64,000 bases of DNA. It comes from Hypericibacter terrae (GTDB taxonomy: Bacteria > Pseudomonadota > Alphaproteobacteria > Dongiales > Dongiaceae). The position numbers and the translations under genes are program-made. Each line of letters begins with the position of its first letter. Position 1 is the stretch's first letter. The notes below the pieces were generated by a model that worked only from the letters and a program-made list of their open reading frames with translations, had not been told where the DNA came from and did not search any database. This document shows positions 3,444 to 29,225 of the stretch, piece after piece. The stretch is taken from the NCBI RefSeq assembly GCF_008728855.1, contig NZ_CP042906.1:5609001-5673000 (forward strand), in the 5' to 3' direction.

Positions 3444-3516
3444 TGCAATCAAGACCTGACTGTTCCCCATCGGCTTCGGCCTTGCGGTTACGCGTCAGGG
3501 CTGCTATTTAAATCGC

Positions 3517-3534
3517 GGCTCCTGGACAGGAGCC
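3517..3534. repeat. 18-base perfect palindrome downstream of comM
   Basis: GGCTCCTGGACAGGAGCC is an inverted repeat with 8-base arms and a 2-base centre. It lies between comM and the low-GC gene at 3638. No T-tract follows, so it is not a good intrinsic terminator. It could be an operator for the downstream gene or a recombination scar; neither is shown. Confidence 0.5.
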
Positions 3535-3637
3535 GGAATAGAAACCTGGACTGGTTTCGGATTGGCATTATCGCGGGAGCTGCGCTGCCGCACGTTCATC
3601 CCATCCGGGATCGGTCCTCTCACTTTTGGAGGACCAA

Positions 3638-5002
3638 ATGAAAAAATCGCTGACCGTCAAGATCAATCAATGCAGCGAGCAGGTCGTGGGGCCTGTTCGG
3701 AAGCTCTATGGCTTGCTGCCGGCAAAATCAGTCGTCCAACTGCTGGACACCGACGACCTCGCGGCAAATCCCCGCTCCGCAAAGAAGGGGTCTGTGACCG
3801 CTGACATCGAAGACAGCCTCAGATTATCTGTCGAGCTGTTTCCCGCGAAGACAAAAGGGATCTTGCTGGCATCCTCGTCATACAGGGCCCTTGACCGCGA
3901 CCGCTACCAGCTTAGCTTCCTCGATCCCGAGACTGAGGGCATCCTCGACGGCGGTCACAACGCACTTGCGGCGGGTAGGCACATCCTCCGCGAGGCTGGG
4001 GCTACGGAGCGTGAACTCAATCGCGTGAAGGATTGGGAAGCGTTTAGGAAGGCTTGGACCGAGAACAGAAACGCAATTGGGGAAATTGTCGATTTGCTGG
4101 ATTTCGAGATGCCAGTCGAAATCCAGGTCCCGGCTGAAATGCAAGATGAGAGCGTTGTAGAGACGTTCCGAAGTTCGCTCCTTGAGATCGGGGCAGCCAG
4201 GAACAATAACGTCCAATTGAGCGAAGAAACCAAGGCAAACAAGAAGGGCTTTTACGACGTCCTCAAGAAGGAACTGCCGAGCTCCCTGGCCGAAGCAGTT
4301 GAATGGAAGACCAACGACGGCGGCCGCATCAAGGTTCGAGACGTCATCGCCCTCTGCTGGATTGGTCTATCAAAGCTGGAGTTGCCTGGTGGTCTGCGTG
4401 TCAACCCGAACCAGATTTATCGCAACAAAGCCGTGTGTGTTGCTGCGTTCAATAAGCTGTTGGAGCACGCGGATGTTTCAACGCCGTCAGAGGGAGGGTA
4501 TACAGTCGGCATTCATAATGAGGCCGTCAAAAGCGCCATGAAAGTCGCTGGCGTCTTTCCCGAGCTCTATGACATTCTGTATGAGGAAATCCCGTCGGCA
4601 TACAATAAAGCTGGCGGCAGCTTCGGGAAGATCTCCGCGGTGAGGATCTACGACCCTGAGAAGGCTGCCGAGAAGAATCCCAAATACCTACGAGCCGAAC
4701 CAACCACGCCCTTCTTCCAGCGTCCGGTGAGCTACACATGTCCAGACGGCTTCATCGTGCCCCTGTTGTACGGCCTGCGGGCACTGCTGGATGTCGATAA
4801 GGACGGGTTGCTGGTCTGGAAGACGAATCCCCAGGCGTTCTTGAGTAGGTTCCTAGTCGAAATCATGAAGAACTATCGGTTCGTGTTCGAGATGGCGGTG
4901 TGGGATCCTCAGAAGGTGGGCAAAAACATCAGCGCCTACGAGTTTGCGGAGAGCGCCATCGCCGCCATTTATAGCGTTAACCGGGCCAAATCGGCCGCGT
5001 AA
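3638..5002 (+). CDS. AIPR/DGQHR-like protein in a low-GC patch (candidate phage-defence gene)
   Basis: A 454-residue protein I recognise only by motif. Residues 104-108 read DGGHN in the context EGILDGGHNALAAG, like the DGQHR/DGGH signature of DndB- and AIPR-type (abortive infection phage resistance) proteins. An RNNNVQLS segment at about 188-195 recalls the Asn-Gln signature of AIPR proteins. There is no signal peptide or membrane segment. The start ATG 3638 follows TTGGAGGA at 3626-3633, an excellent ribosome binding site. Base use differs from the neighbours: 31 of 60 bases are G or C in 4021-4080, against 42 of 60 in comM 2881-2940. It stands alone between comM and an OsmC gene and ends in its own hairpin, with no methylase, nuclease or integrase beside it. 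Family assignment is tentative; acquisition by transfer is likely. Confidence 0.6.
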   Translation: MKKSLTVKINQCSEQVVGPVRKLYGLLPAKSVVQLLDTDDLAANPRSAKKGSVTADIEDSLRLSVELFPAKTKGILLASSSYRALDRDRYQLSFLDPETEGILDGGHNALAAGRHILREAGATERELNRVKDWEAFRKAWTENRNAIGEIVDLLDFEMPVEIQVPAEMQDESVVETFRSSLLEIGAARNNNVQLSEETKANKKGFYDVLKKELPSSLAEAVEWKTNDGGRIKVRDVIALCWIGLSKLELPGGLRVNPNQIYRNKAVCVAAFNKLLEHADVSTPSEGGYTVGIHNEAVKSAMKVAGVFPELYDILYEEIPSAYNKAGGSFGKISAVRIYDPEKAAEKNPKYLRAEPTTPFFQRPVSYTCPDGFIVPLLYGLRALLDVDKDGLLVWKTNPQAFLSRFLVEIMKNYRFVFEMAVWDPQKVGKNISAYEFAESAIAAIYSVNRAKSAA

Positions 5003-5023
5003 CAGCGCTCGCTCATCATTGAC

Positions 5024-5049
5024 ATGGGCCGCTCGCAAGGGCGGCCCAT
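5024..5049 (+). terminator. Terminator hairpin after the AIPR-like gene
   Basis: ATGGGCCGC at 5024-5032 and GCGGCCCAT at 5041-5049 form a 9-base perfect stem with an 8-base loop, 22 bases after the stop codon. It is followed by a weak T-rich run (TTGCTCTTG). It probably ends transcription of the gene at 3638 and separates it from the convergent OsmC gene. Confidence 0.65.
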
Positions 5050-5223
5050 TGCTCTTGTAGATCGACCGGATTGGTCTGATTAAGCCAGCACGCTGCGACG
5101 TCACGAAGACAAGTACGGCGTGGGCCGCAGGCGCTCGTCGGAGGCGCTCTCTATTTCGGTACATGGCGCCGCTAGCGCGTCGCTGTCGGGTTAGAAGGAG
5201 CCCGGGAATCACCGCGGCCGAGA

Positions 5224-7805: not shown

Positions 7806-7823
7806 CCCCCCAGATGTGGGGGG
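7806..7823. other. C6/G6 hairpin upstream of hisE
   Basis: Six C at 7806-7811 and six G at 7818-7823 flank a six-base loop in the short gap between the MaoC stop and the hisE start. No U-tract follows on either strand. It may shape the end of the MaoC transcript or the hisE leader; function is not shown. Confidence 0.35.
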
Positions 7824-7869
7824 CAATGTCATGAAACTATCACAATTGGTGGGAGGGTCTGGGTGGCGG

Positions 7870-8370
7870 CTAAAGCCGCGCGGCGCCCTGCCGGGTGGGC
7901 AGGATCGCCACCCAGAGCTGGGACATGACCGGCTGGTCCTTCTGGTTCTTCGTGACCACCCGCATGACGACGATGCCGCGCTCGGGCCGGGTCTTGGAGG
8001 CGCGCCGCTCCAGCACCTCGCCCTCGGCATAGACCCGGTCGCCCGGCCGCACCGGGCGCTCGAACTTCATCTCCTTGATCTCGAGCCCAACCAGCGGCGT
8101 CGATCCCAGCGGCCTGGCATCGACCATCAGCCGGAAGGTGACGCAGGCGGTCTGCCAGCCGCTGGCGATGAGCTCGCCGAAGAAGCTCTTCGCGGCGGCT
8201 TCCTCGCTGAGATGCATCGGCTGCGGGTCATATTGCCGGGCGAAGGCGAAGATATTGTCGGGCGAAAACTCGAACCCGGCGCTGCGCACCCGCTCGCCCA
8301 CCTCGACATCGTCCCAGAAACGCGGCTGATCGCCGCCGATGGCGGCACCCGAAGACGCGGCTGGGGTCAT
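7870..8370 (-). CDS. MaoC family dehydratase
   Basis: A 166-residue hot-dog-fold protein of the MaoC/(R)-enoyl-CoA hydratase group. The hydratase signature is FARQYDPQPMHLSEEAA with the catalytic Asp and His, followed by SGWQTACVTFRLM. It would hydrate or dehydrate an acyl-CoA; the substrate is unknown. ATG 8368-8370 is chosen because AGGAG lies about seven bases upstream; the frame stays open to 8433. It is divergent from the HxlR regulator at 8454, which may control it. Confidence 0.87.
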   Translation of the reverse strand: MTPAASSGAAIGGDQPRFWDDVEVGERVRSAGFEFSPDNIFAFARQYDPQPMHLSEEAAAKSFFGELIASGWQTACVTFRLMVDARPLGSTPLVGLEIKEMKFERPVRPGDRVYAEGEVLERRASKTRPERGIVVMRVVTKNQKDQPVMSQLWVAILPTRQGAARL

Positions 8371-26730: not shown

Positions 26731-28215
26731 TCAAGGACGGGCGCGCCGGCGCCATTGCTCTTGGAAGGTCCGCCCGGAGGCCGCCGGGAAGTCGCGGCCG
26801 GCGGTCCAGGCCCCGCCTAATGGGAGATGCCGGATCCGGCCTGTGGCCGGCCGGCGCAGCAACCGGGCGGCCAGGGCCATGGCCCCTCGGTAGATTTGCG
26901 GATGCCGGGCGAGCCAGGCCCAGGCTTTGATTCCCCAGCGCTCCCGTGCCGGGGCCAGATGGCGCTCGAAACTGCGCTCGCGCCATTGCCGCAGCATCTT
27001 GGGCAGGGGAATCTGCATCGGGCAGACGCTTTCGCAGCGCCCGCAGAGGGTCGAGGCGTTGGGCAGGTCCTTGGAATGCGCCAGCCCGAACAGGGCCGGG
27101 GTCAGCACCGCCCCGATCGGGCCCGGATAGACCGAGCCGTAAGCATGGCCGCCGATGGCGTGATAGACCGGGCAATGGTCCATGCAGGCGCCGCAGCGGA
27201 TGCAGCGCAGCATATCCTCGAACTCGGTGCCCAGGACGCCGCTGCGGCCGTTATCCAGCAGGATGACGTGATACTCGCCCGGCCCGTCCAGGTCGTGGGC
27301 CCGGCGGGGGCCGGTCGAGACCGTCGTATAGACCGACATCTCCTGGCCCGTGGCGGAGCGCGCCAGCACCCGGAAGATCGCGGTCGCGTCCTCGAGCGTC
27401 GGGACCACCTTCTCGATCCCGGCCAGCACGATATGGATCTTGGGCAGGGTCTGGGTCAGGTCGCCATTGCCCTCGTTGGTGACGATGACGCTGGAACCGG
27501 TCTCGGCGATGAGAAAATTGGCGCCGGTGATGCCGACATCCGCCGCCAGGAACCGGGCCCGGAGCTTTCCGCGGGCCTCGGCCAGCATGGCCGTGATCTC
27601 CGACAGGGGCCGCGCCGGGTCGAGGTCGGTATGGTGGGCGCGGAAGGTGTCGGCGACGCCCTCTTTGCTGACATGGATCGCCGGCGCGATGATGTGGCTC
27701 GGCGTCTCGCCCCGCAGCTGGATGATGTATTCGCCGAGGTCGGTCTCCACCGGGAGAATGCCGTTGGCTTCCAGATGGTGGTTGATGGCGATCTCCTCGC
27801 CCACCATCGTCTTGCCCTTGGTGACCGTGCGCGCACCCGCCGACCGGCAGATCGCCAGCACCTTGTCGCGCGCTTCGGCCGCATCGTTGCACCAATGCAC
27901 CTGGCCGCCGGCCGCCTTCACCTTGGCCTCGAACCGCTCCAGATAGTAGTCGAGGTTGGCCAGCACATGCTGCTTGATCGCCTTGGCATGGTCGCTGAGC
28001 GCCTGGAATTCCGGCAGGCCTTTGCGCGCCGCCTCGTTGCGGCCCTTGAAGCTCGAGCGCATCTCCGCCAGCGCCACCTGCAGCTTGGCGTCGCCCAGCG
28101 CCAGATCGGCATTGTGCTTGAACTGGTCGCTGACGCCGTGACCGACGGCCGAAGGGCTGCGCGGGCCTTGGGCAGGATCGGAGATACCGACGAAGGGAGC
28201 CGTGGGGGCGTTCAT
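26731..28215 (-). CDS. lutB: Lactate utilization iron-sulphur protein LutB
   Basis: A 494-residue protein with an N-terminal LUD-type domain and two 4Fe-4S motifs near residues 325 and 380: CIRCGACMDHCPVYH and CGRCESVCPMQIPLP. In LutABC it passes electrons from lactate. The C-terminal extension after about residue 400 is less conserved. It starts ten bases after lutA ends, so the two form one unit. Confidence 0.93.
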   Translation of the reverse strand: MNAPTAPFVGISDPAQGPRSPSAVGHGVSDQFKHNADLALGDAKLQVALAEMRSSFKGRNEAARKGLPEFQALSDHAKAIKQHVLANLDYYLERFEAKVKAAGGQVHWCNDAAEARDKVLAICRSAGARTVTKGKTMVGEEIAINHHLEANGILPVETDLGEYIIQLRGETPSHIIAPAIHVSKEGVADTFRAHHTDLDPARPLSEITAMLAEARGKLRARFLAADVGITGANFLIAETGSSVIVTNEGNGDLTQTLPKIHIVLAGIEKVVPTLEDATAIFRVLARSATGQEMSVYTTVSTGPRRAHDLDGPGEYHVILLDNGRSGVLGTEFEDMLRCIRCGACMDHCPVYHAIGGHAYGSVYPGPIGAVLTPALFGLAHSKDLPNASTLCGRCESVCPMQIPLPKMLRQWRERSFERHLAPARERWGIKAWAWLARHPQIYRGAMALAARLLRRPATGRIRHLPLGGAWTAGRDFPAASGRTFQEQWRRRARP

Positions 28216-28224
28216 GGCGCGATC

Positions 28225-29013
28225 CTACAACGGCTCGACCTGACCGCGCCCGATGGGCGGGCCGTCGGTCATGTCGGCCAGCACCTCGGCCACGTGGCGG
28301 CAATCGATCTTGTGGCCCTGGCGCGTGAGTTTCCCGGCCATGTTCATGAGACAGCCGAGATCGCCCGCCAGCAGCAGGTCGGCGCCGGTCGCGGCGATAT
28401 CGGCGGTCTTGTCGGCGACGATGCGATCGGAGATCGGGCCATATTTGACGCAGAAGGTGCCGCCGAAGCCGCAGCAGGCCTCGCTGCCCTCGAGTTCCTT
28501 GAGCGTCAGACCGGTCACGGTCTTCAGCAGCTGGCGCGGCTGCTCCCGGATCTTGAGCTCGCGCAAGCCCGAGCAGGAATCGTGATAGGTCGCGACGGCG
28601 TCGAGATGCGCCGGCACGCTGGTGACGCCGCGCTGATCAGTCAGGAACGAGACCAGCTCATGGGTCTTGGCGGCGACGGCCTCGGCGCGCGGGCGCCAGG
28701 CCGGATCGTCGGCGAAGAGCGCAGGGTAATGCGCATGAACCATGCCGGCACAGGAGCCCGACGGCACCACCACGTAATCGAAGGGCTCGAACGCGGCGAT
28801 GACCTGGCGCGCGATCGCCTGCGCATCGGCGCGATCGCCGGAGTTATAGGCCGGCTGGCCGCAGCAGGTCTGCGCCTCGGGCACCGAGACGCGGCAACCC
28901 GCCTGCTCCAGCAGCTTGACCGCGGCGAACCCGATCTCCGGTCGCATCAGATCCACCAGACAGGTGACCAGGAGCGCGACGTGGGGGCTATCTTGCATGC
29001 TTGCGTCCGTCAT
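28225..29013 (-). CDS. lutA: Lactate utilization (Fe-S) oxidoreductase subunit LutA
   Basis: A 262-residue protein with two CCG (heterodisulphide-reductase-like) domains: AQTCCGQPAYNSG and SEACCGFGGTFCVKYG. It begins with VALLVTCLVDLMRPEIGFAA. With LutB and LutC it should oxidise L-lactate to pyruvate at the membrane quinone pool. ATG 29011-29013 is taken; ATG 28998 is an alternative. It is the first gene of the lut set, and a repeat element lies directly upstream. Confidence 0.9.
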   Translation of the reverse strand: MTDASMQDSPHVALLVTCLVDLMRPEIGFAAVKLLEQAGCRVSVPEAQTCCGQPAYNSGDRADAQAIARQVIAAFEPFDYVVVPSGSCAGMVHAHYPALFADDPAWRPRAEAVAAKTHELVSFLTDQRGVTSVPAHLDAVATYHDSCSGLRELKIREQPRQLLKTVTGLTLKELEGSEACCGFGGTFCVKYGPISDRIVADKTADIAATGADLLLAGDLGCLMNMAGKLTRQGHKIDCRHVAEVLADMTDGPPIGRGQVEPL

Positions 29014-29038
29014 AAGCGGTTCCGCTGTTTCTTTCCTC

Positions 29039-29225
29039 GCCCCCACGACGTGGGGGAGAGGGACGCGTAGGCTTGGTTGAGGCGCAGCCGAAATCTAGCC
29101 GGAGCTGGGTGAGGGGGATGGTCGCAGGAAAGAACGCACCCTTCGGGAACTCGCATGTCATCGAGAGCCCCCTCACCTTGATCCTCTCCCCCTGCTTCGC
29201 GGATGGAGAGGAAAGAAAAGGAAGG
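29039..29225. repeat. Intergenic repeat element (copy 2) between mltA and lutA
   Basis: The element shows the same block order as 11395-11560: GGTGAGGGGGATGGTCGCAG, then AAAGAACGCACCCTTCGGGA, then CCTTGATCCTCTCCCCCTGC. The resemblance is too long for chance. It lies just where the lut genes meet the mltA gene. Confidence 0.6.

Follow-up and report, generated by a model that had tools for sequence, protein, structure and literature searches.

How is a solitary gene of unusual composition beside comM kept under control, and what might it do? This question is raised by a 64,000-nt stretch of Hypericibacter terrae (GCF_008728855.1, NZ_CP042906.1, 5,609,001-5,673,000 of the forward strand), referred to here as the window, in which a gene for a divergent AIPR-type protein of 454 amino acids (aa) occupies positions 3638..5002 on the + strand, as indicated by the list of open reading frames (ORFs) and by profile, bridging-homologue and fold evidence. 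A preliminary description of this DNA had placed a 454-residue gene at the same position, which we confirm, and had noted the lack of a partner gene. There is indeed no protein partner, but a structured RNA (3517-3588) is conserved together with the gene. We slightly favor the view that the locus is an AIPR module that was acquired laterally, is self-contained and is gated by RNA. The AIPR proteins take their name from abortive infection, and no mechanism for them is described in the literature searched. An RNA tied to one AIPR subfamily would give a direct handle on binding partner and trigger, and would add to the few cases, such as AbiF and the type III toxin-antitoxin systems, of a structured RNA controlling a defence gene.

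The leader RNA and its distribution

The leader of the gene contains a structured core of tandem hairpins (3517..3588, + strand) supported by covariation, with a fold z of -3.4 and a match of 54 bits (E 2.6e-12) to R1, a covariance model made from a seven-leader seed of which this leader is itself a member. Hairpin 1 (3517..3534, +; GGCTCCT-GGAC-AGGAGCC) shows compensatory changes at 6/6 pairs across 11 leaders. Hairpin 2 (3541..3558, +; GAAACC-TGGACT-GGTTTC, followed by a conserved GG) is the most conserved element, with such changes at 3/6 pairs in the same leaders. The hairpin 3 region (3573..3591, +) is assigned from the predicted fold, and its window copy deviates from the form with a GGA loop seen in the relatives, in which 6/6 pairs covary. 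The layout common to the window and ten relatives comprises a promoter-like element, hairpins 1 and 2 (loops GGA or GAGA), in most cases hairpin 3, and a variable stretch; in the proteobacterial leaders a final hairpin lies over the Shine-Dalgarno sequence (SD).

Within the seed, 89.5% of the cells are paired and compensatory changes occur at 13 of the 18 pairs, whereas shuffled controls average 6.2 compensated pairs and none of 500 reaches 13. Sliding the pairing partners by 1-3 columns lowers pairing to 28-51%. The 11-leader alignment, which was fitted to the structure, has covariation at 15/18 pairs. When R1 was run on held-out leaders (312 kb searched), it recovered those of loci L014 (1.7e-7), L013 (1.9e-7), L004 (1.1e-5) and L006 (0.0053), each match standing directly upstream of an AIPR-type start codon; nothing significant was found at 24 loci of other AIPR proteins. 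Across the window's genome the leader is the sole significant site (E=4.8e-11; next-best E 0.7).

A later model, R2, was searched over 398 genomes of the phylum and gave strong matches in three, the very genomes that encode the full-length protein. R2 had been built with the leaders of all three included; the result therefore speaks for specificity and not for independent recall. A marginal match in a further genome, G481 (E 0.0023 over the 398 genomes), was rejected as chance, being GC-rich and having no AIPR gene in the stretch fetched. When IMG/VR was scanned with a hairpin 2 pattern, nine contigs were returned, two of them true and both linked to AIPR, the other seven being chance hits that mostly fall within coding sequence. 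The RNA precedes AIPR-type genes in bacteria, plasmids and phages. It has no match in Rfam at the gathering score, and no report of an RNA paired with AIPR was found in the literature searched, the coverage of which omits many journals. Judged from these comparisons, a conserved, covarying RNA specific to one AIPR subfamily very likely exists, and the covariance model can be used for finding further copies.

Relationship of the protein to AIPR

By transitive homology and predicted fold, the window protein is a distant relative of AIPR (PF10592, abortive infection phage resistance; AbiU1/AIPR), as had been proposed from its motifs. Both of those motifs are present, DGGHN at residues 104-108 and RNNNVQ at 188-193, and they are invariant or almost so across relatives; the motifs NPR...DGGHN...ARN are common to AIPR and the window protein. 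The profile search suggested earlier does yield a weak match to PF10592 (E=0.054, residues 42-107), but at 13.6 bits it falls short of the curated Pfam cut-off of 25 bits. The same profile matches 10 of 11 close relatives within the subfamily (best E=6e-5). The relationship is carried by bridging homologues. Searches of plasmids with tblastn retrieve annotated Firmicutes AIPR proteins (best E 6e-10, 85-90% of length), and hhalign aligns the window protein over most of its length with four of these plasmid AIPRs, L007-L010 (99.7% probability, E=1.9e-26, 336 columns), a set whose members match PF10592 with a best value of 1.1e-32. With long AIPR proteins the profile match is confined to 34 columns.

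The AlphaFold2 model of the window protein (pLDDT 84) points the same way, its fold search retrieving a podovirus AIPR protein (E=2.5e-5, probability 1.00) with low TM-scores (0.38/0.45). Weaker fold matches are to GmrSD and ParB-like proteins. A fold search of the PDB found no significant structure, with a weak ParB N-domain at most, and a sequence search of the PDB found no match.

An affiliation with DGQHR/DndB (PF14072), also put forward in the preliminary description, is rejected on sequence. The DG-H motif is common to these proteins and the window protein, but Pfam and NCBIfam give no match, profile similarity does not extend beyond 26 columns (hhalign probability 0.1), and PF14072 has no match anywhere in the window's genome. 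In earlier work the N-terminus of DndB has been grouped with AbiU1/AIPR (PMC3506569), and DndB has been placed in the ParB superfamily, members of which have nuclease and NTPase activity (PMC10853773).

Probable control of the gene by the RNA and rival explanations

A promoter-like TTGCGG-N17-TATTTA (3482..3510, +) lies 6 nt 5' of hairpin 1. It is weak alone, and a promoter scan of the window leader called none; its -35 position is kept in relatives. The TTG of the -35 5' of hairpin 1 is invariant in nine aligned leaders (alignment A16), and the position of the hexamers is constant, the -10 stopping ~3-8 nt short of hairpin 1. Their promoter scores sum to 88, whereas 2000 random placements, a null made up mostly of coding sequence, reach 73 at most. 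Such placement predicts that the transcript probably starts at hairpin 1.

At the other end of the leader, the ribosome binding site had been described as strong. The SD GGAGG is present (3628-3632), but it is enclosed in a stable hairpin, GGTCCTC...GAGGACC (3613..3635, +), with a pairing probability of 0.99 in the isolated segment, and the label thus misses the point. Across 11 leaders the SD pairing probability is 0.57-1.00 and the last 45 nt have a mean z of -2.2. The clostridial homologue L006, from Subdoligranulum, is arranged as a promoter TTGACA-17-TATCAT (7806-7834), a predicted RNA start at hairpin 1 (7841), the hairpins, an intrinsic terminator with a U tract (7922-7945), and then the SD and gene. 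The order in L115 is alike: promoter, hairpins (z -4.5), a terminator with six U, and the gene. In the window leader no terminator was found between RNA and gene. It is likely that the leader RNA controls the gene, which would probably be kept off by default.

In the mechanism that we prefer, transcription would start at hairpin 1, and the 5' leader would fold into the tandem hairpins that covariation shows to be conserved with the gene. The end of the leader would act as the off-by-default element, predicted to be an SD-hiding hairpin here and an intrinsic terminator in the clostridial homologue. The leader RNA would bind the AIPR protein itself, with free protein or RNA level setting both expression and activity, and takeover of the cell by a phage would relieve the block, as proposed for AbiF. 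The AIPR protein would most likely act as an anti-phage effector of the abortive-infection type, as its family and neighborhood suggest. In its fullest form the proposal is a new RNA-protein conflict module, an RNA-antitoxin system unrelated to ToxIN or AbiF, in which an undescribed tandem-hairpin RNA would bind and neutralize an effector of AIPR type, gating its expression as well. This form is possible but less likely than not.

Several observations weigh against this reading. R2 has no match at L115, the most divergent homologue, and the RNA sequence is therefore not universal across the protein family. Two copies of hairpin 3, those of the window and L002, are degenerate. When the window leader is folded alone, a long competing helix takes the place of hairpin 2 and the SD hairpin in the minimum-energy structure, which makes the working fold uncertain. 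Additionally, PADLOC, PHROGs and NCBIfam hold no model that matches the window protein.

By analogy, AbiF is the nearest precedent for an RNA-AIPR module, a structured RNA upstream of its gene neutralizing the toxic protein (PMC12373285). In AbiF/AbiD with the abiF RNA motif (RF03085), as in the loci described here, a gene of abortive-infection type is immediately preceded by a structured RNA, and both are carried on prophages and plasmids; a terminator between RNA and gene is likewise seen in L006. However, the window protein is unrelated, with no HEPN/Abi_2 match in the family search, and so is its RNA, with no RF03085 match. This precedent, the carriage on plasmids and phages, and the layout of L006 would also suit a type III-like toxin-antitoxin locus, in which AIPR is the toxin and the short leader RNA serves as a separate antitoxin that acts in trans. 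L006 and L115 have the same order as ToxIN, CptIN and TenpIN, that is, promoter, short RNA, terminator and gene. The window leader differs in its hidden SD and in the absence of a called terminator, the ~450-aa protein has neither a ToxN family match nor a known toxin domain, and the hairpins are not strict sequence repeats, whereas the repeats of the known systems are near-identical. We regard such a locus as possible and somewhat doubtful. A comparably modest chance is given to the leader being a cis-acting switch only, one that does not bind the AIPR protein and that is either riboswitch-like or responsive to a factor of host or phage, for example an RNA-binding protein. The sensor-like part of the leader is conserved and its ends differ, with an SD hairpin in proteobacterial leaders and a terminator in L006 and L115, and the GGA loops are reminiscent of CsrA sites. 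The loop of hairpin 2 could form 5-6 pairs with the anti-SD arm in 8/10 leaders (permutation p 0.03, a post hoc and weakly significant test; p 0.51 for hairpin 1 and 0.07 for hairpin 3 as controls), and this pairing may free the ribosome binding site. Together with the competing helix, the complementarity suggests a switch without proving one. Yet no other gene was found with the RNA in the window's genome, the IMG/VR pattern scan or the 398 genomes, a pattern not usually seen with a metabolite riboswitch.

It is improbable that the inverted repeats work as DNA instead of RNA, serving as operators through which the AIPR protein regulates its own gene, an arrangement claimed for DndB. The weak ParB-like fold hints in the window protein would be in keeping with an operator, but such a site would conserve sequence, and here the stems vary with compensation, keeping pairing and not sequence, while the loops remain similar. 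The elements also lie downstream of the inferred transcript start, and the SD is enclosed in one of the hairpins. Less probable still is an ordinary solitary AIPR-like gene with a leader that folds by chance. GC-rich leaders fold readily and the leaders number only 11, but the slid and shuffled controls and the specificity of the models speak against chance, and the held-out R1 search largely refutes it.

Probable acquisition, neighborhoods and other features

The gene has a G+C content of 55%, while the other selected ORFs of the window average 67% (sd 3.4), and the codon use of the gene is the most host-unlike among 52 selected ORFs. Its upstream neighbor is comM and its downstream neighbor a convergent osmC. 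A blastn comparison of the window with L078, from the sister species (G001, the one further genome searched in the genus), shows that the segment 3437..5252 (no strand assigned) stands in place of a 52-bp gap, the comM-osmC spacing being 1816 bp here. No relatives of the protein were found in 16 other family members searched, other genomes in a 385-genome sample of the class yield fragments only, and the 398 phylum genomes hold two further full-length copies. No convincing att-type direct repeats surround the insert. Owing to the unusual codon use and G+C, the empty site in the sister species and the sparse occurrence, the gene is accessory and most likely a recent acquisition by lateral transfer, although gene loss in the sister species may formally be the alternative. 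The low G+C and the lateral transfer put forward in the preliminary description are supported. The gene was also credited with its own terminator. A 3' hairpin, ATGGGCCGC...GCGGCCCAT (5024..5049, +; read from sequence), does exist and is possibly a weak terminator, but its U tail is weak and the terminator scan did not call it.

Across loci, the constant unit is the RNA plus the AIPR gene. The module is solitary in the window, while in L082 it adjoins a helix-turn-helix (HTH)/RelE-like pair (read from translations) and in L115 a DprA-type gene. A small GIY-YIG-like/MUG113 gene begins 4 nt downstream of it in L002. The module is followed in L014 by a type IIG-like methylase and an HKD-SNF2 helicase, and in L004 by a remnant resembling the start of that methylase; a type ISP methylase and a helicase precede it in L081, and in L087 the start of an HKD-SNF2 helicase overlaps the stop of the AIPR-type gene. 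Serine recombinases adjoin L013 and L014, and a tyrosine integrase lies near L015. Considering the restriction-type methylases, HKD-SNF2 helicases and integrases beside relatives, in addition to the AIPR family itself, a role in defence seems rather likely.

The Firmicutes plasmid AIPR loci examined (L007, L008, L009 and L010) have an annotated, divergent HTH regulator gene upstream, replacing the RNA leader, with no significant match to the window's RNA. HTH regulator and RNA leader are possibly two alternative controls on one effector. Two distant loci (L015:67-912 and L108:8810-9670) have in common a 281-285-aa gene just upstream of the RNA-AIPR module, with a C-terminus that reads as nuclease-like and no Pfam or PADLOC match.

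Elsewhere in the window, a 747-aa ORF (26827-29070) has low GC3, no Pfam match and host-like neighbors, and may be an artefact of ORF selection. In the sister species, comM itself is interrupted by a 4-kb IS1595-type transposon (L078:2595-6690) carrying an N4/N6 DNA methylase, and the adjacent 210-aa gene is possibly its endonuclease. Each of the sister species therefore has a defence-type gene at comM, though not at the same position. In a genome from another family of the class (G020), comM is split by an IS1595-family element (L079:2283-4146), and in G005 and G019 it is found in two pieces on different contigs.
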